From the NCBI GenBank assembly GCA_903813345.2, contig CAIIXF020000004.1:23563985-23627984 (forward strand): a DNA stretch of 64,000 bases, given 5' to 3'. Positions 7,530-57,080 of the stretch are shown here, one piece after another. Each line of letters opens with the position of its first letter. The first letter of the stretch is position 1. The stretch is from Owenia fusiformis (lineage: Eukaryota > Annelida > Polychaeta > Sabellida > Oweniidae). A program made the translations under genes and the position numbers. The notes beneath the pieces were generated by a model that ran no database searches, was not told where the DNA came from, and worked only from the letters and a program-made list of their open reading frames with translations.

Positions 7530-9380
7530 TTGTTTATGAATACCTAGCAAGAGCTCAAAAAGTTCAATCATCTATTTATCTCAAAAAGACCTCAAAAACT
7601 GAGCTTGAATTAGAAATATGTCTTCTAAAATCTTCCTCGCCTGGACCTGATGGGATTCTACCATCACTTATTAAGTCTGTAAGACAGTTTTTAATTGATC
7701 CGCTCTTGTATATATTTAACTTATCTTTTAAATCTTGTATTTTCCCAGACGCCCTCAAATTGGCCAAAGTAACACCTGTATTTAAAAAAGGAGTCACTAC
7801 AAATCCTTCGAACTATAGACCAATTTCAGTTTTATCGTAATTTTCTAAATTGTTAGAAAAGCTCATGCACGCCAAACTCACTGGTTTTTTAGAACGTTTT
7901 GAAATTATTTTTACTTATCAATTTGGATTTCAGAAATTCAACTCTACCTACATGGCCATTTTATATTTCATTGACCAAATTCGAAAATCAACTGATTTGG
8001 GGAAAACGAGCATTGGCATAACATTAGATTTTTCCAAGGCCTTTGACACTATTAATCATGACATTTTGATAAAAAACTTGAATATTATGGCATCAGAGGA
8101 ATAGCTAAGTCCTGGTTTGAAAGTTATTTAAAAGACTGCAAACAATATGTCACCATTAACAATTATGAATATAAACAATCATCTCTAAATTGTGGTGTTC
8201 CGCAGGGCTCGGTACTTGGACCACTATTATTTATTCTTTACATAAATGATCTGCCTTTTGTTGACCCTAATCTAAAATTTATTATGTTTGCTGATGACAC
8301 CAATCTTCTTGATAGTGATTATGATTTAAATGAACTTATGACTAGAACTAATGCAAACTTGAATTCAATAGATGACTGGATAAAAGCAAACAAACTTTCA
8401 CTTAATATTGGCAAAACCAATGCTATTCTATTTGGACCCCAAAAAGATCAAACAAATCTGAATCTCAAAATACGCAATGAGAACATAAATTTCCGGGATA
8501 AAATTGACTTTCTTGGAATTATTATTGATAAAAACTTGAAATTTAAAGAGCACATAAAATCTATTGAAACAAAGATTTCTCGCGCCATTGGTTCTCTTTA
8601 TCACATTAAACATCTACTTCAAATAGACAGTTTCAAAACAATTTACTACTCATTGATACACTCTCAATTAAATTATTGCAACATAATCTGGGGTAACACA
8701 TTTAAATCATTTTATGATCGTCTACATAAACTGCAGAAACAATTCTTAAGGCTAGCTTTAAATAAGGATAGACCTTCTCACTCCGCTCCCTTATTTGAAG
8801 ATCTTAACATATTAAATATTTTTGATGTCAACAGATATTGTACTGGTCAGTTCATGTACAAAATCTTTAATAAGCACCCCAGTCTTCCAAAAAATCTATT
8901 TCAAGACTTGTTTGATATCAACATTAATATTCATCATCATTACACAAGACAATTGCATTATTTTCATATCCCTAAATGCTCTAAACTTTCCCTTCGCTAT
9001 CTAGGTCCTAATCTTTAGAATGCTCTACCACATGATATTAAAAAATGCTCCACTCTAAATATTTTCAAATCTTCATATAAAAAACTACTCATCTATCGAT
9101 AATGTATAATACCAATATCATACTATACTGTTGATTTTATACTGATACCTGATTTTTGTAACATTTTTACATTGTACATCCTTAGATTAATTGTTAATAC
9201 CATTTTTATATACCTACATGTAACATAATATAAGTGTTTTCTTTTATATGTAGTCTAGATGTCATTTTAATGATTTCTGTTAGACCGCAACATATACCCA
9301 CTAGGGTGTCTAGCGGCTTGTTTTTATAGTGTATATTATATAAGAATTATGAAATAAATTGAATTGAATTGAATTGAATT
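7530..9380 (+). mobile_element. 5'-truncated non-LTR retrotransposon (CR1/L2-type LINE)
   Basis: A fragment of a Jockey-superfamily LINE. It starts inside the reverse transcriptase region, so the endonuclease domain and 5' UTR are missing, which is the usual result of incomplete target-primed reverse transcription. The 3' end is sharp: after a ~250-bp 3' UTR the element finishes with a GAATT-type pentamer tail (about 9356-9380), as in CR1/L2-like families that end in short tandem repeats rather than poly(A). The coding part is described in the overlapping pseudogene entry. It sits within a cluster of fold-back elements whose copies are found on both sides. The exact 5' junction (about 7500-7530) is uncertain. 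Confidence 0.88.
7577..9102 (+). pseudogene. LINE reverse transcriptase, inactivated
   Basis: The translated region shows the RT signature blocks in order: SPGPDG near 7635, NYRPISVLS at about 7811-7837, the first catalytic block LDFSKAFDTINH near 8023-8060, GVPQGSVLGPLLF near 8192-8231, and the FADD catalytic box at 8287-8298. A thumb/C-terminal region continues to a stop at 9100-9102. Three lesions disable it: an in-frame TAA at 7838-7840 just after the NYRPISVLS block, a frameshift close to 8083, and a TAG at 9016-9018 in a normally conserved C-terminal stretch. It therefore cannot encode an active enzyme. The family call rests on motif recognition and would be sharpened by an RT phylogeny. 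Confidence 0.9.
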
Positions 9381-19653: not shown

Positions 19654-21164
19654 GTTTATGAAATGACATGTGAAATTCGCACCAAGATATGGGTTGACAC
19701 CTTACCCGTTCCAGATCAAAACCTTTACGAGCAAGAGAACACAAATGATCATAACTACAACATCGACATACCTGAGGTGCACGTGCCTATAGTAAATGAT
19801 AGACTAGAACTAAGGGGAGAAACACTAAATGAAAATAATAATTCCAATAATCGTAAAATAAAAATGGGAGTAGAAAATGTAGCATATCAGTATGATAGCC
19901 ATGAACAAAACGGGAATGCCAAGAACAAGACTGTCGGCAATGGTGACGTTAAAATGTTCACTGATCCAAGACTTCCTTTGTCCATACCAAACGAATGGTC
20001 TTTTTCAAAATTCTTGCCGGATAATTCTACACCAAATGGATTTATATCAGCGGCTAATTTTGCGCCATTCAAATTACCAAACACCAGCATTCAAAATGAT
20101 AAGTCATTATTTGGAGATCGTCCAATATATTTACCCAATCCTGTGGATGAACAGCCTGAGAACAATACTAAAATACAGCATGATACAGGTGATACTAATG
20201 CTGAAGATTTAGTTACCAATGATTCGATTGAACAACCAGAGAACAATACTGAAATACAGTATGATCGGGATGATGTTAACGATCCAGTTACCAATGATTC
20301 GATTGGCAAATTCAAAATTAGTGAATCCCCTGTCAAAGGCCAGCCAAATTATAGTTACTTTACTGAAAAACAGACAAGTCCGACAGACAGATTCTCATCG
20401 ACGTCTGAGATCGAGGAATCCTCTGGTGGAAACGATAGTGAGGTCCTGAACGACAGGGATCGAAATGCTCACCCATTTGCCATTCAAGAACAAGAGGATG
20501 ATACATCCTCGATTTCCGATCATTTCCGATTTCTGGAAGATGAATCTGATTCAGAACAAGGGGATGGTACATCCTCGATTCCCGATCATTTCCGATTTCT
20601 AGAAGACGAATCTAACAGGTCTTCCGTCGTTCTGTCCACAGAGCCTTCAGAGCAAGTTGCCATTGATATGGACCAAATTCAATTGGGAGTGAGTGAAGAG
20701 TCTTTACCTGATAAAGATGATCAACCGTCCACTATGTATGTTCATCTTCATATTACAAAGGAAATGCTTGAAGAGTTCAGAGAGGAACAGGACCGTCTGG
20801 CATCGGAAGATGAAGCCATTGTGCAGGATATGATAAGAGAAGAAGAAAGGCGCAAGAAAATGAAAAAGAAAATGAAGAAGATGAAGAAGAAGGAATTGAA
20901 GAAATCCTCAAAGTTGGAACAACTGTTTGAAACACCAGAACATGAGGACTCGGGGATTGATCCCGAATTCGAATCAACATCTGTTAACGACGTCGTAATT
21001 GACGTCAATGGGAGCGTTTCTTCGGAAAATGGGCAAATAATGACGAAAGATTTACTGCCAGGTATAACTGAAGGTATGGGCACCTCTGAAGGAGAACCCG
21101 AGGGTGAACAAAAAGAGTCAAACAAAGACGACCAAGAAGAAAGAGTCAAAATCAGCAGATACCT
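19654..21164 (+). CDS. hyaluronan synthase exon 1: acidic, low-complexity N-terminal region
   Basis: The acceptor TTTCATTTCAG precedes 19654 and the donor GTAAGC follows 21164. The first in-frame ATG is at 19663. The frame is open for ~1.5 kb in AT-rich DNA and joins exon 2 in phase. The peptide is rich in D, E, N, S and T, with no signal peptide or membrane segment. It contains two internal repeats: EQPENNT followed by VTNDSI (twice, about 20150-20310), and SSIxDHFRFLEDES (twice, about 20510-20620). A highly charged KKMKKKMKKMKKKELKK stretch (about 20850-20905) probably forms a helix or coiled coil. A cytosolic, mostly disordered regulatory or scaffold role is plausible because the next segment is the first membrane helix. 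I recognise no known domain. An alternative is that a further 5' exon adds residues, since the acceptor precedes the ATG. Confidence 0.8.
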
Positions 21165-24100
21165 GTAAGCAATTTAATATATCTTCATATTTTTTTAAAT
21201 CGCCAAACAATCAGGTTTAGTTAACTGATCCTAAATGAGTCTTTAGGTTCCAACCATATAGGAAAATATGATCTCAAATCCCAAAATGGGACAGTCAAAG
21301 ACCAAGAATATTACGGGGTGAGCCAAACAAATCTTAATAACTCAATTATTCATCCCAGTGTGGGTTTCAGATAATATTGAATATAATGGAACCTTGTTCG
21401 ATTGTCCTTTCATTCTGATATGTTTCTTTGTCTTATGGTCATGATTTCATGGCAATTTTACAAAACATGCTCCAAATGCCAAAACATACCAAAAACAACC
21501 CAATATGAAACCCTTGAATTTTATCTTTGGGGCTATTTCAAATGTAATGCGTATATGAACAACCCTAGAAGAGAGTTAAAACAAGAGGTTAGAAAGCAAA
21601 TGAGAGCCATTACACAATATATCCGTGAGCATGTCATCAGAAAACTACCTGATGTTTTCAAGCTTGCCTCAAAAACATGCAGTACGTATTTTGAGCATGT
21701 TTTGTAAAATGGCCATAAAATCGTGACCATTTGCAATAAGCCAATTAAACGTGTTTGAGTGGACGGACTTATTCTGATCAGGTGCGTTATGTCGTATATT
21801 TTCAGACCTCGAATCAAGAAAAAACACGAGGCGAATGTTACCTTGGGATTTAGAATATTCTACCTCTCCATGAGTATTGGGCTTGTGATTGGACTAATGT
21901 TGGTATTCTATGTCTTAAACGTAAGACTAGTTCGTGTTGGAATGGGGACGCTACCCTGGGCGCAAACTGTCTATGGACTTGTTACAATGTCTCATTATAT
22001 CTCCGAATCCTTTTTCGCAATAATCAATAAGTACAAGATGAGCAGACTGGGCAGAAAAGTGCAAGGCTTGAAGAGGGCAAATTTCAGATGTGAGGGCAAA
22101 GTGGCGTTGCAGGTTAGTATCTTTTTACCTAATTTTCCGATTATAACCCCCCTATCACACCAAACTAGTTCTTACCCGTTCTTGCCAGTCCTACGAAAAC
22201 GTCGTAAAACGGGCTCAATCTGGCTGTGGTCGGGAAATATGTCTAAAATAATTGGCTACTTCGTTCATAAACAGTCTTCACTCATTCACAGTACGTTCAG
22301 GTTGCACAACGTCGGTGTGCAACGTCGTATAACGCGTCCCTTAGTCTAGAAGGTCATCATGACCTGATTACAGAACGGTATGGTCGCCATCGAATTTTGA
22401 ATCGATTCAAAATTCTAAATCACATGCCCCGTCCGGGAAAGTCCATGAAGTTCGTAAACAGACCGTGGAACGTTGTAGCTACGTTCATTTAGTTCACACA
22501 CAGTTTAACGATTCGGCAACGTTTTGACGATCACCAGAAAATTTTGAGCATGCTCTAAGTGCTGGAGGACACTCGTTATAGTAGTTTCATGAAGTTTGTA
22601 AACAGATACCAAACGGTTCTTAGTGCACAGTTTAAGCCCGTTTTCGAGAACGTAGTGAGAACTAGTTTGGTGTGATAGTAGGGTTAGTTCATTCATTATA
22701 TCCGTGATGCCTCGCTGCATTACTTTTGCTAGACGAGGGCCGGAAATGGCTTGTCAAAGGGGGAAACTAGAACATGTCTGAGTGTCGGTGTGAGGTCGGA
22801 TTCGGCCGAGTAAGCAACTCCTGCTGTATTCTGCCCTCCCATTATGCAAGCATTTGGAACACATTGGTGGGCCACATTAAAATGTGTTTTATCTCTTTTT
22901 ACTCTGTGTTGAGGCATACAAGACAAGAGTAGTAGATCGTGTATAGATGTCACTCAATGGGTTCTGAGGTTTTAGGTAATAAAAATGATCACACTAACAT
23001 ACTCCATCCTGTAGCCTGTATTTCTTTAAAAGGGATATACAGGCTACAGTGAATTTGCAAATGGAGGACGTTTGTTCATTTTCATATTTCTGAAGGTATA
23101 CTTGATTTTACATACATTCCAAGTGTTCTGCAAAACATTGTATAGATTTATCGAGCAGTATGCATTGTATTATTACCAGAGAAACCCCTATCGACAAACA
23201 TGAAGTATACCTCCAACATTTGCTAGCCCGTACCCTTTTTAAAGAAATACAGGCTACAGTCTGGGGCTAGGTTGTGATGATTTTAATATTTGTGAATTTG
23301 CTCGCGTGACCTGGTCATGTATGCAAAACAAACTACTAGCTAGATTCACGCCATCTATTGTCAGTACACTAACCCATTTCGTCAATATTTTCTACCAATC
23401 CTTCCTATTTCTTCTGAATGTATGACAGAATTTGTTGTTTTTACTTTTGAGTGTACGAGTTAGCTCAGGAGTAACACATATCTAAGATAATAGATTCCAA
23501 TTTATATTTAATGGGTGTCGACCGGTTGTATGGCTTCCCTTCTGCTGCATGGCCCAACCTCGATTGAATGGAAAAGATGTTGTCCAATATTTAATATGCG
23601 TCACCGTATTTTGACATACAGTAACAAGGGTTGAATATATCATTCATAAGTAGGGCGAATGTGGGCTCAAACATGAAGCCAGTTCAAAGATTCCTATTCT
23701 TGTTTTTACAGATCGTTGGTTATAGAGAGGACCCCGCTTATTTCCGTAACTGTATTCTCACTGCCCGTGACTGCGCTGGTCCCATTTATGTTGTGATCGT
23801 TGTTGTTGACGGCCACGAAGAAAGGGACGCTTACATGGCGGAAATCGTCACAGAGGTGTTTGGACCGGATGTGACGATGCAAATAATTCTCGATGAGCTA
23901 GCTGCTAACATTGATGAAGACGCCTGGCAGGATTTGGTTGTCAAACCTGTAGCTGAGTATTTAGGGGATGGCAGCGAATATACTGGTGCGATCCGGGAAG
24001 AAGACGAGGAAATTACGTACAAAGTTCTTGCTATTCGACAACTCCACGAAGGGAAACGCTCCGCAATGCATTGTGCTATGAGATTGTTGATCGATCTGGG

Positions 24101-25004
24101 GTTGGATTATATTATGATGACTGATTCTGATACCCTCCTTGACCCAGACTGCATCGCTCATTTGTCAAATTTAATCGAGTCTGATTCCAGTCTTGGTGCT
24201 GTTACGGGTAATGTCGGGATCTTCAATGCTAATGAGAGCCCTATCTCTTATTTAAGCGCAGTTAAGTACTGGTACGCTTTTAACATTGAGCGTTCCGCCC
24301 AAAGTTTGTTTGGAGTGGTCTCTTGCGTGTCGGGACCACTGGGACTATACCGTGCGAAAGATGTTGAAAAGGTGCTACATGAGTGGTATTTTCAAAAATT
24401 TCTTGGAGTGCCGTGCACTTACGGAGACGACAGACATCTTACGAATAGGATACTCTCTCTGGGGAAAAATGTAAAATTTACACATTTAGCAACTTGTACT
24501 ACGGAAACACCGACAAATATGATCCGATGGATTGTCCAACAAACACGATGGACGAAGTCATTCTTTCGTGAACTTGGCTTTAACTTGATGTGGGCTTTCA
24601 AAGTTAATTTCTATCTCACGTGGGTGTTATTATACCAAGGGATTTACCCTTTCTTCGTATTGGCAAGTATCGTTACGCTGCTGTTCTCAAACTCAGCAAA
24701 TAGTATTGCAACATTATTAGTTGTCATGATTCTTGTCAGCACATTTAGGGCGGTCCTCGCCTTTGCTATTGCTAAGCAACCGCGTCTGTTAGTCTACATT
24801 ATATACAGTTTCCTGTACGTTATATTTATGATTCCAACGAAAGTACATGCAGTATTAATGCTGTGGGACACCGGCTGGGGCACATCGAGTAGACTAACTG
24901 TGAAAAACGGAAATCCTATCCACCTTATACCGATGTGTCTCTGGAGTAGTCTAATCGTCGGAGGTGTCACGTACAATTTTATAACAAATCTGTTTCTCGA
25001 GTAA
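19663..25004 (+). CDS. hyaluronan synthase with long N-terminal extension (3 coding exons)
   Basis: Exons 19654-21164, 21806-22112 and 23712-25004. All junctions are GT/AG and the phases fit (phase 2, then phase 0), giving one frame of about 1033 residues from the ATG at 19663. Family hallmarks are in order: two N-terminal membrane helices (~516-538, ~552-574), VVVDG (634-637), GKR (717-719), DSD (741-743), GPLGLYR, GDDRH (841-845), QQTRW (879-883) and WGTSSR (992-997), with more membrane helices between the last two and after. In this GT2 family the enzyme sits in the plasma membrane, joins UDP-GlcNAc and UDP-GlcUA into hyaluronan and extrudes the chain. GDDRH with QQTRW and WGTS separates it from metazoan chitin synthase. 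Vertebrate enzymes are ~550 residues. Here ~500 extra residues precede the core, and the protein stops 36 residues after WGTSSR, without the final helix and tail. Product specificity is inferred from family. Confidence 0.9.
21316..21790. mobile_element. mariner-like transposon relic in intron 1
   Basis: Starts with GGGGTGAGCCAAACAAATCT, like the ends at 3822, 50512 and 63286. A translated segment at about 21500-21660 (LEFYLWGYFK, then NNPRRELKQEVRKQMR) resembles the C-terminal DFFLWGY... region of mariner-type DDE transposases. Two inner arms (about 21434-21474 and 21687-21731, CATGGCAATTTTACAAAACATGCTC-like) are inverted. Only a fragment of the transposase remains. Confidence 0.55.
21806..22112 (+). 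CDS. hyaluronan synthase exon 2: N-terminal membrane pair
   Basis: Acceptor ATATTTTCAG before 21806 and donor GTTAGT after 22112. The exon supplies residues 501-603: a basic PRIKKKH lead, helix 1 (GFRIFYLSMSIGLVIGLMLV), a short loop, helix 2 (WAQTVYGLV ... SFFAII), then a basic linker ending at VALQ. This is the same layout as the N-terminus of known hyaluronan synthases, where the strand after this linker opens the glycosyltransferase fold. Confidence 0.88.
22147..22683. repeat. fold-back repeat in intron 2 of hyaluronan synthase
   Basis: CTATCACACCAAACTAGTTCT near 22151 pairs with AGAACTAGTTTGGTGTGATAG near 22659. Further in, AAAACGGGCT (22206-22215) pairs with AGCCCGTTTT (22634-22643), so the arms are imperfect over ~70 bp. 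The interior has short CATGAAGTTYGTAAACAGA direct repeats (about 22444 and 22589). Confidence 0.7.
23009..23259. mobile_element. 251-bp inverted-repeat element in intron 2
   Basis: 26-bp terminal arms: CTGTAGCCTGTATTTCTTTA at the left end and TAAAGAAATACAGGCTACAG at the right end, extended by AAAAGGG / CCCTTTTT. A smaller hairpin with GATATACAGGCTACAG sits just inside the left arm. No ORF. Confidence 0.8.
23712..25004 (+). CDS. hyaluronan synthase exon 3: catalytic domain and C-terminal membrane region
   Basis: The acceptor TTTTTACAG precedes 23712 and the frame begins IVGYREDP, matching the conserved first strand of the GT2 fold. The exon carries all catalytic motifs and three to four hydrophobic segments (about 898-927, 932-955, 961-986, 1008-1029). 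The TAA at 25002-25004 comes right after NLFLE. A weak donor-like GTAATC overlaps the stop codon (CTCGA|GTAATC), so a spliced form with another C-terminal exon is possible, but I found no convincing downstream exon. Confidence 0.92.
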   Translation: MVGYREDPAYFRNCILTARDCAGPIYVVIVVVDGHEERDAYMAEIVTEVFGPDVTMQIILDELAANIDEDAWQDLVVKPVAEYLGDGSEYTGAIREEDEEITYKVLAIRQLHEGKRSAMHCAMRLLIDLGLDYIMMTDSDTLLDPDCIAHLSNLIESDSSLGAVTGNVGIFNANESPISYLSAVKYWYAFNIERSAQSLFGVVSCVSGPLGLYRAKDVEKVLHEWYFQKFLGVPCTYGDDRHLTNRILSLGKNVKFTHLATCTTETPTNMIRWIVQQTRWTKSFFRELGFNLMWAFKVNFYLTWVLLYQGIYPFFVLASIVTLLFSNSANSIATLLVVMILVSTFRAVLAFAIAKQPRLLVYIIYSFLYVIFMIPTKVHAVLMLWDTGWGTSSRLTVKNGNPIHLIPMCLWSSLIVGGVTYNFITNLFLE

Positions 25005-40193: not shown

Positions 40194-40496
40194 TTCTGAA
40201 TTAGATATATTTTCACAAACTTATGTAGACCTTTTCGTACTGTGTATCTCTGAATAAGATATATTTTTACAAACTTATGTAGACCTTTTCGTACTGTGTA
40301 TCTCTGAGTAAGATATATTTTTACAAACTTATGTAGACCTTTTCGTACTGTGTATCTCTGAATAAGATATATTTTTACAAACTTATGTAGACCTTATCGT
40401 ACTGTGTATCTCTGAATAAGATATATTTTTACAAACTTATGTAGACCTTATCGTACTGTGTATCTCTGAAGTAGATATATTTTTACAAACTTATAA
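40194..40496. repeat. 54-bp minisatellite in probable 3' UTR of CAP gene
   Basis: About 5.6 copies of a 54-bp unit containing GATATATTTTTACAAACTTA and TGTAGACCTTTTCGTACTGT, starting ~85 bases after the stop codon. Later units share CCTTATCG instead of CCTTTTCG, so they derive from one another locally. Confidence 0.9.
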
Positions 40497-40995: not shown

Positions 40996-43279
40996 GTAAT
41001 TTTGTTATCATGTCAAGTCTCCAAAGTTTACTGCAACTTTGTTATCATGTCAAGTCTCCAAAGTTTACTGCAACTTTGCTATCATGTCAAGTCTCCAAAG
41101 TTAACTGCAACTTTGTTATCATGTCAAGTCTCCAAAGTTTACTGCAACTTTGCTATCTTGTCAAGTCTCCAAAGTTTACTGCAACTTTGTTATTATGTCA
41201 AGTCTCCAAAGTTTACTGCAACTTTGTTATTATGTCAAGTCTCCAAAGTTTACTGCAACTTTGCTATCATGTCAAGTCTCCAAAGTTTACTGCAACTTTG
41301 CTATCATGTCAAGTCTCCAAAGTTTACTGCAGCTTTGTTATCATGTCAAGTCTCCAAAGTTTACTGCAACTTTGCTATCATGTCAAGTCTCCAAAGTTTA
41401 CTACAGCTTTGCTATCATGTCAAGTTTCCGAAGTTTACTGCAGCTTTGTTATCATGTCAAGTCTCCAAAGTATACTGCAACTTTGTTATCTTGTAAAGTC
41501 TCCAAAGTTTACTGCAACTTTGTTATTATGTCAAGTTTCCGAAGTTTACTGCAGCTTTGTTATCATGTCAAGTCTCCAAAGTATACTGCAACTTCGTTAT
41601 CTTGTCAAGTCTCCAAAGTTTACTGCAACTTTGTTATTATGTCAAGTTTCCGAAGTTTACTGCAACTTTGTTATCATGTCAAGTCTCCAAAGTTTACTGC
41701 AGCTTTGTGATCATGTCAAGTTTCCGAAGTTTACTGTAACTTTGTTATCTTGTCAAGTCTCCAAAGTTTACTGCAACTTTGTTATTATGTCAAGTCTCCA
41801 AAGTTTACTGCAACTTTGTTATTATGTCAAGTTTCCGAAGTTTACTGCAGCTTTGTTATCATGTCAAGTCTCCAAAGTTTACTACAGCTTTGTTATCATG
41901 TCAAGTTTCCAAAGTTTACTGCAACTTTGTTATCATGTCAAGTCTCCAAAGTTTACTGCAACTTTGTTATCATGTCAAGTTTCCGAAGTTTACTGCAACT
42001 TTGTTATCATGTCAAGTCTCCAAAGTTTACTGCAACTTTGTTATCATGTCAAGTTTCCGAAGTTTACTGCAACTTTGTTATCATGTCAAGTCTCCAAAGT
42101 TTACTGCAACTTTGTTATCATGTCAAGTCTCCAAAGTTTACTGCAGCTTTGTTATCATGTCAAGTCTCCAAAGTTTACTGCAACTTTGTTATCATGTCAA
42201 GTCTCCAAAGTTTACTGTAACTTTGTTATCATGTCAAGTCTCCAAAGTTTACTGCAACTTTGTTATCATGTCAAGTCTCCAAAGTTTACTGCAACTTTGC
42301 TATTATGTCAAGTCTCCAAAGTTTACTGCAACTTTGTTATTATGTCAAGTCTCCAAAGTTTACTGCAACTTTGTTATCTTGTCAAGTCTCCAAAGTTTAC
42401 TGTAACTTTGTTATCTTGTCAAGTCTCCAAAGTTTACTGTAACTTTGTTATCTTGTCAAGTCTCCAAAGTTTACTGCAACTTTGTTATCATGTCAAGTCT
42501 CCAAAGTTTACTGTAACTTTGTTATTATGTCAAGTCTCCAAAGTTTACTGCAACTTTGTTATCATGTCAAGTCTCCAAAAGTTACTGCAACTTTGTTATC
42601 ATGTCAAGTCTCCAAAGTTTACTGTAACTTTGTTATTATGTCAAATCTCCAAAGTTTACTGCAGCTTTGTTATCATGTCAAGTCTCCAAAGTTTACTGCA
42701 ACTTTGCTATTATGTCAAGTCTCCAAAGTTTACTGCAACTTTGTTATTATGTCAAGTCTCCAAAGTTTACTGCAACTTTGTTATCTTGTCAAGTCTCCAA
42801 AGTTTACTGTAACTTTGTATCTTGTCAAGTCTCCAAAGTTTACTGTAACTTTGTTATCTTGTCAAGTCTCCAAAGTTTACTGCAACTTTGTTATCATGTC
42901 AAGTCTCCAAAGTTTACTGTAACTTTGTTATTATGTCAAGTCTCCAAAGTTTACTGCAACTTTGTTATCATGTCAAGTCTCCAAAAGTTACTGCAACTTT
43001 GTTATCATGTCAAGTCTCCAAAGTTTACTGTAACTTTGTTATTATGTCAAATCTCCAAAGTTTACTGCAACTTTGTTATCATGTCAAGTCTCCAAAGTTT
43101 ACTGCAACTTTGTTATCATGTCAAGTCTCCCAAAGTTTACTGTAATTTTGTTATCATGTCAAGTCTCCCAAAGTTTACTGTAACTTTGTTATCATGTCAA
43201 GTCTCCAAAGTTTACTGCAACTTTGTTATCATGTCAAGTCTCCAAAGTTTACTGCAACTTTGCTATCATGTCAAGTCCC
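40996..43279. repeat. 37-bp satellite array, ~62 copies
   Basis: Head-to-tail 37-bp units (TTTGTTATCATGTCAAGTCT + CCAAAGTTTACTGCAAC) with high identity and no spacers. Because 37 is one more than a multiple of three, one reading frame cycles through all phases of the unit. As none contains a stop, frames of up to 600 codons arise with a 37-residue repeat. These are not genes. Marker variants show internal structure: GTTTCCGAAG units at 41424, 41535, 41646, 41720, 41831, 41979 and 42053, and a ~406-bp repeated block near the right end. Flanks on both sides contain TCCAACGWAATTKTG. Confidence 0.95.
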
Positions 43280-44719
43280 CACATTCCAACGAAATTGTGC
43301 CATAGCTTGTGCAACAATAGCGAATATAGACATATCTTATAAATTCTGACTTAATCAACCAAAGAATTTAGAGCTGTACACTATATAATGTGACTTCCAA
43401 ATAGATAGATGGTGCATGGGCATGAATAAATTTAATGGGACGAAGATAAGTGTTTTGTAAACGTTTATTGAAAACTTAATACATCTAGCCAAATAATTAA
43501 AAACATTGATGTGATATATAATACATTTTTAAAAATAAGTTGGGTATACGCCTAACCCACCTGTCTTCTTTACCTCTAAAGTTCTCTTCTCAACGTTTAT
43601 TGTAATCATGTCCCCTTTTCACTACGTTCACAATCTCCATTTAACGTAAATGTGTTCCTTTGAGTAAAACACCTTGAAGTTTATGTATCAAGTTTACTAC
43701 GCCTTTCATGATGATGGTACAGTGGAAAATGACTCAGAATTTATACATGCACCATGCCCATAGGTCATTCCATTACTCCTACATCTAATACTCCCACACT
43801 TTGAAATAAACTTGACAAATTATTTTAACTTTTAACCTTGCTCTTTTATGCAGTTTGATATGGTTTATTTGCCGGCTTCAAAATTCACCCACTATTAAAC
43901 AAAACATATGACATCACGCGGTGAAGCTTTTTTTGACAAACGAAGAAAACTAATTATTTAGTGAGATGGTGTGTAGTCCATACAATGCTATCCTGATAGT
44001 CCATGACATATGGTACAATCACAATACAGAGGATTTTATTCAAGACCTTTGCAAAATCGTCCATTTTTGATAACCATTGAAGCACTTTAAAATGGTATCA
44101 GACAATCAAATGAAATGGCATCTATTTTCAGCTACGATGGTAAATAATCACAAATAAATGCGTACAATCGTTGTTTTATTAATTTACATGGCGAAACTTT
44201 TGGAATCCAGATTCAACTTTGTTTAGCTCGGCAACCATCTTGGATGAAGCTAACTGCAGTTAGAGCCATCCAGGTGTGGAACAGTGATTTTGTTGGAGGT
44301 ATTTTATCAACGCCGGTTGAACCAAAAGAACAATATACATGTACATCTAATTCAATGTCCATGAAGCGCACTCGCCAATGGACGTATATAGTATTTCTTT
44401 CAAGATGAGGAGATTCTGACATCTTTCTATATCTAGTATTTTCTATTTGGTAATATTTAGTTGTTCAAAGCGTGTTAGAATAATTTTTGAATCGTTCATT
44501 TTGTTTGTTACATCTAGGTCCAGCAAAAAAAATTCAAAAAGGTCTTAGTGAATGAGATGATGGGGATTTTGTATTTATCCCAAATCCAATGCACGAAGAC
44601 ATGATAATATGCAGCTTTTAAGTCAATTGTGAATATCCCGGGCCCATGTTAAGTCAATACACCCTTGCTGAAATCTCAGACTCAAGTTGATCGGGTCTTA
44701 ACAAATGAGCCTTGCCATA
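43280..44719. other. intergenic, no gene seen
   Basis: No exon recognised on either strand. GGTGCATGGGCATG at about 43411 has an inverted counterpart CATGCACCATGCCCAT at about 43746. Confidence 0.45.
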
Positions 44720-56204: not shown

Positions 56205-57080
56205 CAATCATTTGACTAATATTGATACTTCATTCAACCAAGATATTGACTAATCATTCAACCAATACAGTTAAATCATCCAACCAATGCTATCAAAATC
56301 ATTCAACCAATACAGTCAAACTCTTCAACCAATGCTATCAAAATCATTCAACCAATACAGTCAAACCCTTCAACCAATGCTATCAAAATCATTCAACCAA
56401 TACAGTCAAACTCTTCAACCAATGCTATCAAAATCATTCAACCAATACAGTCAAACCCTTCAACCAATGCTATCAAAATCATTCAACCAATACAGTCAAA
56501 CCCTTCAACCAATGATATCAAAATCATTCAACCAATACAGTCAAACTCTTCAACCAATGCTATCAAAATCATTCAACCAATACAGTCAAACCCTTCAACC
56601 AATGCTATCAAAATCATTCAACCAATACAGTCAAACTCTTCAACCAATGCTATCAAAATCATTCAACCAATACAGTCAAACCCTTCAACCAATGCTATCA
56701 AAATCATTCAACCAATACAGTCAAACCCTTCAACCAATGCTATCAAAATCATTTAACCAATACAGTCAAACTCTTCAACCAATGCTATCAAAATCATTCA
56801 ACCAATACAGTCAAACCCTTCAACCAATGCTATCAAAATCATTCAACCAATACAGTCAAACTCTTCAACCAATGCTATCAAAATCATTCAACCAATACAG
56901 TCAAACCCTTTCAACCAATGCTATCAAAATCATTCAACCAATACAGTCAAACCCTTAAACCAATGCTATCAAAATCATTCAACCAATACAGTCAAACTCT
57001 TCAACCGATACTGTCAAATCATTCAACCAATACAGTCAAATCATTCAACCAATATGTTCATATAATTCAACCAATACATA
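56205..57080. repeat. 45-bp satellite array with 5-unit higher-order pattern
   Basis: About 16 full units of ATCAAAATCATTCAACCAAT + ACAGTCAAACTCTTCAACCAATGCT, with shorter half-units at both ends. Each unit contains two TTCAACCAAT words. A C/T site (AAACTCTT or AAACCCTT) runs T-C-T-C-C three times from about 56281 to 57000. A unit length divisible by three with no stop makes a 223-codon frame of 15-residue repeats, which I regard as an artefact. Confidence 0.93.

Follow-up and report, generated by a model that had tools for sequence, protein, structure and literature searches.

In the 64,000-nt window of the Owenia fusiformis genome analyzed here (G000:C4:23563985-23627984, within the 498-Mb assembly that was also searched for relatives), three exons encode what sequence and structural models identify as a membrane hyaluronan synthase (HAS) of the animal class, with hyaluronan, a slippery connective-tissue sugar made from UDP-GlcA and UDP-GlcNAc, as its predicted product, joined in frame to a long acidic N-terminal tail. 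We propose that the window contains one animal-class HAS gene whose long cytosolic tail acts as a docking and regulation arm, and assign this statement as a whole a probability of roughly 60%; the gene structure and the HAS identity, taken alone, are very probable. The tail-HAS architecture is real, is common to two paralogues of this genome, and is new in detail, the presence of HAS in Owenia fusiformis having already been published.

The exons, at positions 19654-21164, 21806-22112, and 23712-25004 of the window (the exons, the motifs and repeats within them, the in-frame ATG of intron 1, and the intron 2 repeat described below all lie on the + strand), join with intron phases 2 and 0 into a frame of 1033 residues without an internal stop codon. 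An earlier note, made from the sequence alone, had proposed three exons with these phases and a product of about 1033 residues, and had recognized a HAS in its C-terminal half; the joined frame bears out the first claim, and PDB sequence search, fold, and tree agree on the second. Exon 1 consists of a probable 9-nt leader followed by residues 1-500, which form the tail, and ends in phase 2 at the donor CT/GTAAG; a homologous exon is present in one of the paralogues, designated A. The ATG at 19663 is most likely the first codon and 19654-19662 the 5' leader, because a stop codon directly precedes the matching ATG in paralogue A. Exon 2, of which three further copies were found in the genome, encodes a basic KKKH stretch, the first transmembrane helix (TM1; hydropathy peak at 21876-21932), and the TM2 region, and ends in phase 0. 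Exon 3 encodes the glycosyltransferase family 2 (GT2) catalytic domain, the interface helices, and the predicted C-terminal membrane helices, followed by the stop codon TAA.

The genome search identified four HAS genes, with the window gene on contig C4 and paralogues A, B, and C clustered at 34.41-34.48 Mb of contig C6, and each of the four is split by one intron in phase 2 and another in phase 0. When exon 1 was used as the query, the search returned the exon itself and two stretches at E ≤ 1 (11 candidates scored), and both stretches fall within a single open frame that precedes synthase A on C6. This exon 1 of A is an open frame of 678 codons (677 residues), which starts with an ATG right after a stop codon and ends with ...ITKYL at the same phase-2 junction. 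Exon 2 of A begins 159 bases past it, and its frame contains no ATG between the upstream stop codon and the exon. The protein starts correspond (MTSARMATKVWVDKLPV in A against MTCEIRTKIWVDTLPV in the window gene), and the junction ...YL/P..KKKH is common to both. The homologous exon, the matching start, the phase-2 intron, and the lack of an in-frame ATG upstream of exon 2 in A strongly support, at the level of sequence, an in-frame fusion of the tail to the synthase.

Comparison of the two exon 1 sequences over 472 aligned codons showed an amino acid identity of 43% and identities at the three codon positions of 0.61, 0.67, and 0.42, with a dN/dS ratio of 0.22 by the NG86 method and a synonymous divergence (dS) near saturation. 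Since this codon comparison was made on the protein alignment, all frame pairs were also compared. The +1/+1 pair scored 477, against a maximum of 105 among 500 shuffles; the next pair, -1/-1, which is the antisense of the same codons and contains 16 and 20 stops, scored 260. At four-fold degenerate sites, the third base was equal at 25 of 74, indicating that the protein similarity has outlasted synonymous change. Several islands were kept in this alignment outside the core motif described below, namely TK.WVD.LPV, DIPEVHV, GF.SAANFAP, SYFTEK, and LPGITEG. A long open frame and protein-level constraint on exon 1 are well supported by these sequence comparisons.

Exon 1 of A (C6:34418428-34416396) also carries three DSG..[ST] motifs, a number reached in none of 2000 shuffles. 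The motif resembles a phosphodegron pattern. It is absent from exon 1 of the window gene, and a degron was rejected on this ground as a family-wide explanation.

The synthase was assigned to HAS by motifs, sequence search, fold, and phylogeny. The catalytic exon contains DSDT (DxDT motif; residue 741, 24123-24134), GDDR (residue 841, 24423-24434), and QQTRW (QxxRW motif; residue 879, 24537-24551), which belong to the HAS motifs listed in the part of PMC11750622 consulted, and the gating-loop motif WGTSSR (residue 992, 24876-24893). Compared with the gating loop WGTSGRK/R, in which W491, T493, and R496 are the functional residues, the loop of the window gene (WGTSSRL) keeps W, T, and R, with G replaced by S and the last K/R by L. 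The TM2 motif is TVYG in the window gene and SVYG in authentic Chlorella virus HAS (CvHAS), versus GLYG, and the occurrence of SVYG in CvHAS means that the exact GLYG motif does not define the class. A PDB sequence search with the HAS part returned only HAS at E ≤ 0.001 (5 distinct sequences), with 315 bits for Xenopus laevis HAS1 (XlHAS1) and 233 bits for CvHAS. The alignment with XlHAS1 covers, in order, the membrane helices expected of this class, two before the GT domain and four after it. In the window copy, hydropathy exceeded 1.6 at TM1 and in two C-terminal stretches (408-456 and 463-487, numbered within the HAS part), stayed below this value at TM2 and the last helix, and exceeded it in one stretch of the catalytic domain as well.

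A structural model of exon 3, built from five sequences with a mean predicted local distance difference test score (pLDDT) of 69.8 and a poor region at residues 390-430, retrieved HAS chains at all of ranks 1-13 in a Foldseek search. In the fold comparison, HAS chains reached Z scores of 31.4-34.9 and the best chitin synthase 26.7; the HAS chains thus placed ahead of the chitin synthases, and their sequence identity was about double. Phylogenetic analysis of 13 sequences placed the four Owenia genes in one clade (support 100), joined by XlHAS1 (96) and then by CvHAS (96), apart from NodC and from two chitin synthases of Owenia itself; in this tree XlHAS1 was the only other animal HAS, XlHAS1, CvHAS, and two chitin synthases were partial, and cellulose synthase was left out. 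Scanning viral sequences with only the window protein gave nothing, and alignment-based scans found relatives in 3 of 68 viral-contig and 1 of 101 prokaryote-contig candidate stretches, at 29-34% identity, falling outside the XlHAS1 and CvHAS branches of the same tree. A plasmid search returned 265 records, mostly rhizobial, with ten rows among the matches listed at 27-32% (one annotated as nodC), and a phage search gave three weak matches. On these scans, with XlHAS1 as the one non-Owenia animal HAS compared, a viral or prokaryotic origin of the synthase was provisionally set aside.

Paralogues B and C are short-tailed. The first exons of B and C contain 47 and 50 complete codons, respectively, and end in phase 2. 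In both, LP...VH.HVTKDR aligns to residues 346-375 of the window protein (20698-20787; ESLPDKDDQPSTMYVHLHITKEMLEEFREE), a motif related to all three paralogues; the form shared by the family is LP...VH.H.TK, and the window form, LP...VHLHITKE, lies at the start of a predicted helix. The score of the B and C core against A was reached in none of 2000 shuffles. A genome-wide search with the 38-residue core of A matched only the four HAS genes at E ≤ 10 (all four first-look candidates scored), B and C at just E 0.47, and a genome search with the short exon of C matched B and A and did not match the window copy. In the catalytic domain, GEDR replaces GDDR in B and C. Paralogue B additionally has five residues gone shortly before GEDR and VVWCVSG in place of VVSCVSG; judging from these sequence changes, B may be changing function or decaying.

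The tail itself is acidic, with 107 Asp and Glu against 53 Lys and Arg residues, and is classed as disordered by its charge and hydropathy. In a single-sequence model of exon 1, in which disorder and lack of data are inseparable, pLDDT was below 50 in 416 of 499 residues, and one helix was predicted at residues 366-421 (20758-20925), starting within the core motif. The first half of this helix is acidic and the second half rich in Lys and Met, and ten-residue block means reached a pLDDT of 94 with no alignment as input. The tail is thus predicted to be mostly disordered. Two sets of internal repeats were found: set 1 at 20135-20279 (64 nt, two copies, 75% identity, spacing 81) and set 2 at 20487-20613 (61 nt, two copies, 92% identity, spacing 66; TSSI.DHFRFLEDES). 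Because set 2 is present as a single copy in A and set 1 lies in sequence that is gap-rich there, both sets look like later duplications. DUF3006, PF07771, and PF16134 were rejected as tail domains, their matches being weak and below cut-off.

These results agree with the earlier note on the acidic composition and the two repeat sets. The Lys/Met-rich helix that it had described was recovered in the model, but the run behind it is an AAG/ATG codon repeat at the DNA level (20854-20903), and A is rich in Lys, Arg, and Pro at this position. Of the features that the note had stressed, the fusion is backed by A, whereas the repeats and the Lys/Met run are not kept as such in A. Other motif islands are conserved instead, foremost among them LP...VHLHITKE at the helix start.

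The possible rootings of the four genes were also compared. The 13-sequence tree grouped the window gene with A (support 65). A six-sequence test, with XlHAS1 and CvHAS as outgroup, preferred the window gene branching first, although the approximately unbiased (AU) test rejected no rooting among the three compared, with p = 0.80 when the window gene branches first, 0.27 when it pairs with A, and 0.11 when A branches first. With either the window gene or A at the first branch, parsimony would make the long tail the ancestral state, with loss in B and C; if the two group together, a single gain would be equally possible. Maximum-likelihood estimates of dS were 0.82 for A versus B, 0.89 for A versus C, and 1.58 for the window gene versus A, and the lower values within C6 are consistent with an early split of the window gene or with gene conversion among the C6 genes.

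The reading of the tail as a functional arm has to be weighed against the view that it is largely neutral padding, in which a short ancestral exon expanded in this lineage into low-complexity sequence that stayed open but has no particular task outside the core. This view is favored by the two internal duplications and the codon-repeat run in the window copy, by the identity of 34% to 43% with many gaps between the window and A tails, by the two paralogues that make do with 47-50 residues, and by the weak grouping of the window gene with A, which would permit a single later gain. Several non-core islands have nevertheless been kept despite the synonymous divergence, and the six-sequence test favors the rooting in which the long tail is ancestral, even if the other rootings survive the AU test. 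We consider padding unlikely, yet well short of negligible. Several of our own observations also weigh against the proposal as a whole. Splicing across 21164/21806 and 22112/23712 is inferred from the sequence; exon 1 is for the most part gap-rich and fast-evolving, and most of the tail is dispensed with in two of the four paralogues (B and C). The core of the window copy is less similar to B and C than to A, its score being reached in 11 of 2000 shuffles for B and 2 of 2000 for C. The disorder prediction shares the ambiguity of the single-sequence model, and the basic segment is modelled as helical in the window copy but contains proline in A. Searches with exon 1 yielded nothing above the Pfam and NCBIfam cut-offs and nothing in the PDB at E ≤ 1, and no partner or mechanism can therefore be named by homology; neither exon 1 of the window gene nor that of A has a Pfam match above cut-off, including to the myosin motor domain. 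The Pfam assignment of exon 3, considered next, also counts against the proposal.

Two further alternatives concern the gene itself. The enzyme could be a chitin-type or other GT2 synthase rather than HAS, as Chitin_synth_2 was the best of the Pfam GT2 models for exon 3 (51 bits over a cut-off of 27 bits), and the NodC model reached 160 bits, under its cut-off of 550. The PDB search with its exclusive HAS matches, the fold ranking, and the tree side with HAS; two chitin synthase exons read from the Owenia genome lie elsewhere and carry SGEDRW, and genes with Link domains and glycoside hydrolase family 56 (GH56) domains are present, though neither proves hyaluronan. We therefore regard a non-HAS enzyme as improbable. 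Still less probable is that exon 1 is a separate gene or mispredicted and that the synthase begins at the in-frame ATG at 21789-21791 (MSYIFRPRIKKKH...), the case that the earlier note had named as refuting the fusion. This is the sole in-frame ATG within the 16 codons from the upstream stop codon to exon 2, and a start there would yield a short HAS like XlHAS1. However, the site sits in the end of intron 1, A, B, and C have no ATG in that frame between the upstream stop codon and exon 2, and A has a homologous exon 1 joined at the same phase, on which ground a separate gene for exon 1 was rejected.

Under the preferred reading, that of a HAS with a built-in arm, the tail is inferred to lie on the cytosolic side, because the catalytic domain, itself cytosolic, comes after two membrane helices, the arrangement given for animal and viral HAS in the part of PMC10939387 consulted. 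The tail would then act as a tethered arm for docking and regulation. It is predicted to be largely disordered and contains short conserved islands and a single conserved core, which leads into a helix. We speculate that this core helix engages either a partner or the synthase itself, that the basic segment next to it touches the inner membrane, and that signals for modification and turnover reside in the acidic stretches rich in Ser and Thr. Such an arm could set the location and residence time of the synthase, and the core-only paralogues B and C would be short, less regulated forms. A broader version, proposed tentatively and with the odds somewhat against it, is that Owenia possesses a HAS family with a built-in cytosolic control arm, divided by arm loss or gain into long regulated members (the window gene and A) and short unregulated members (B and C), and that the core helix motif is a new enzyme-specific docking or autoregulatory module. 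A comparison of long-tailed with short-tailed synthases within the same animal would open the regulation of HAS through its cytosolic parts to direct test; how modification of HAS affects catalysis, turnover, and transport is treated as open in the portion of a 2023 review that we consulted (PMC10939387). The tail is not described in the passages and abstracts consulted, and the fused protein may already be in public annotation.

The available part of a 2025 study (PMC12383584) reports that, among animals, hyaluronan is widely held to be restricted to chordates or vertebrates, and that among protostomes only Owenia fusiformis gave HAS orthologues, four in number (OFUS_LOCUS13222, 13223, 13224, and 8535). 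Given the contig layout, with three HAS genes together on C6 and one on C4, the window gene is probably OFUS_LOCUS8535. The same part of that study lists 12 Link-domain tags (1703, 1958, 1959, 6629, 6630, 6632, 6635, 7726, 20046, 23164, 23165, and 25169). Our genome search found 21 Link-domain exon matches on C1, C3, C4, C5, C9, C11, and C12, 11 of them on C3; the tags fit these matches in number order and not one to one, with four tags for the 11 matches on C3 and no tag for the match on C5. At G000:C10:7963147-7974015, ten exon matches to GH56, the hyaluronidase family, cover the model twice, with stops in four of the ten stretches, and probably represent two adjacent genes. By sequence, the GH56 and Link-domain matches form a candidate hyaluronan toolkit, and an Owenia that combines four HAS genes with genes of the Link-domain and hyaluronidase-like kinds puts to the test the view that hyaluronan is restricted to chordates or vertebrates among animals.

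Several repetitive elements were also observed in the window. Intron 2 contains a MITE-like interspersed repeat with 32-nt inverted ends (22144-22686), for which 66 matching segments were obtained from 40 of 2325 candidate genome places scored, the long ones at 86-93% identity. Intron 1 contains a 43-nt inverted repeat pair (21435-21730) that overlaps an open frame at 21387-21707; this frame looks like the end of a mariner-type transposase and has no Pfam match above cut-off. Positions 41001-43281 are occupied by a satellite (61.6 copies of a 37-bp unit) that is open in several frames and mimics long open reading frames (ORFs), and a 54-bp array at 40195-40494 adjoins it. A further array at 56252-57078 comprises 18.4 copies of a 45-bp unit, and the Pfam matches of its ORF, such as Apolipoprotein, are below cut-off and probably spurious. 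A reverse transcriptase fragment is present at 8062-9018 (RVT_1, E 1.2e-13).

Finally, we compared the window protein with known systems. XlHAS1 (PDB ID: 8smm, 8smn, and 8smp) aligned from TM1 to the region of the last membrane helix (query 15-525 versus 40-537), with 38% identity over the catalytic exon and with DxDT, GDDR, QxxRW, and the gating-loop W, T, and R kept. Unlike the window protein, XlHAS1 has about 40-50 residues before TM1 (chain numbering, by alignment) and no long tail, and its chain extends 64 residues past the alignment, whereas the Owenia protein ends within about 8. CvHAS (PDB ID: 7sp6-7spa and 8snc-8sne) has the same fold (Z 31.4-34.9; 32-35% identity) but is more distant than XlHAS1 by the bit scores given above, and its aligned chain likewise has no long N-terminal tail. 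Additions in front of a synthase are known from chitin synthases, which, according to the parts of PMC3942024 and PMC9556331 consulted, gained a myosin region at the N-terminus on two or more occasions and, in oomycetes, an MIT region. The accessory domains of the myosin- and MIT-chitin synthases are known folded domains, unlike the window tail with no recognized domain, and these fusions are an analogy, not evidence for the window gene. What the lophotrochozoan myosin-chitin synthases and the oomycete MIT-chitin synthases share with the window protein is a processive membrane synthase of the GT2 family that carries an accessory region at its N-terminus.

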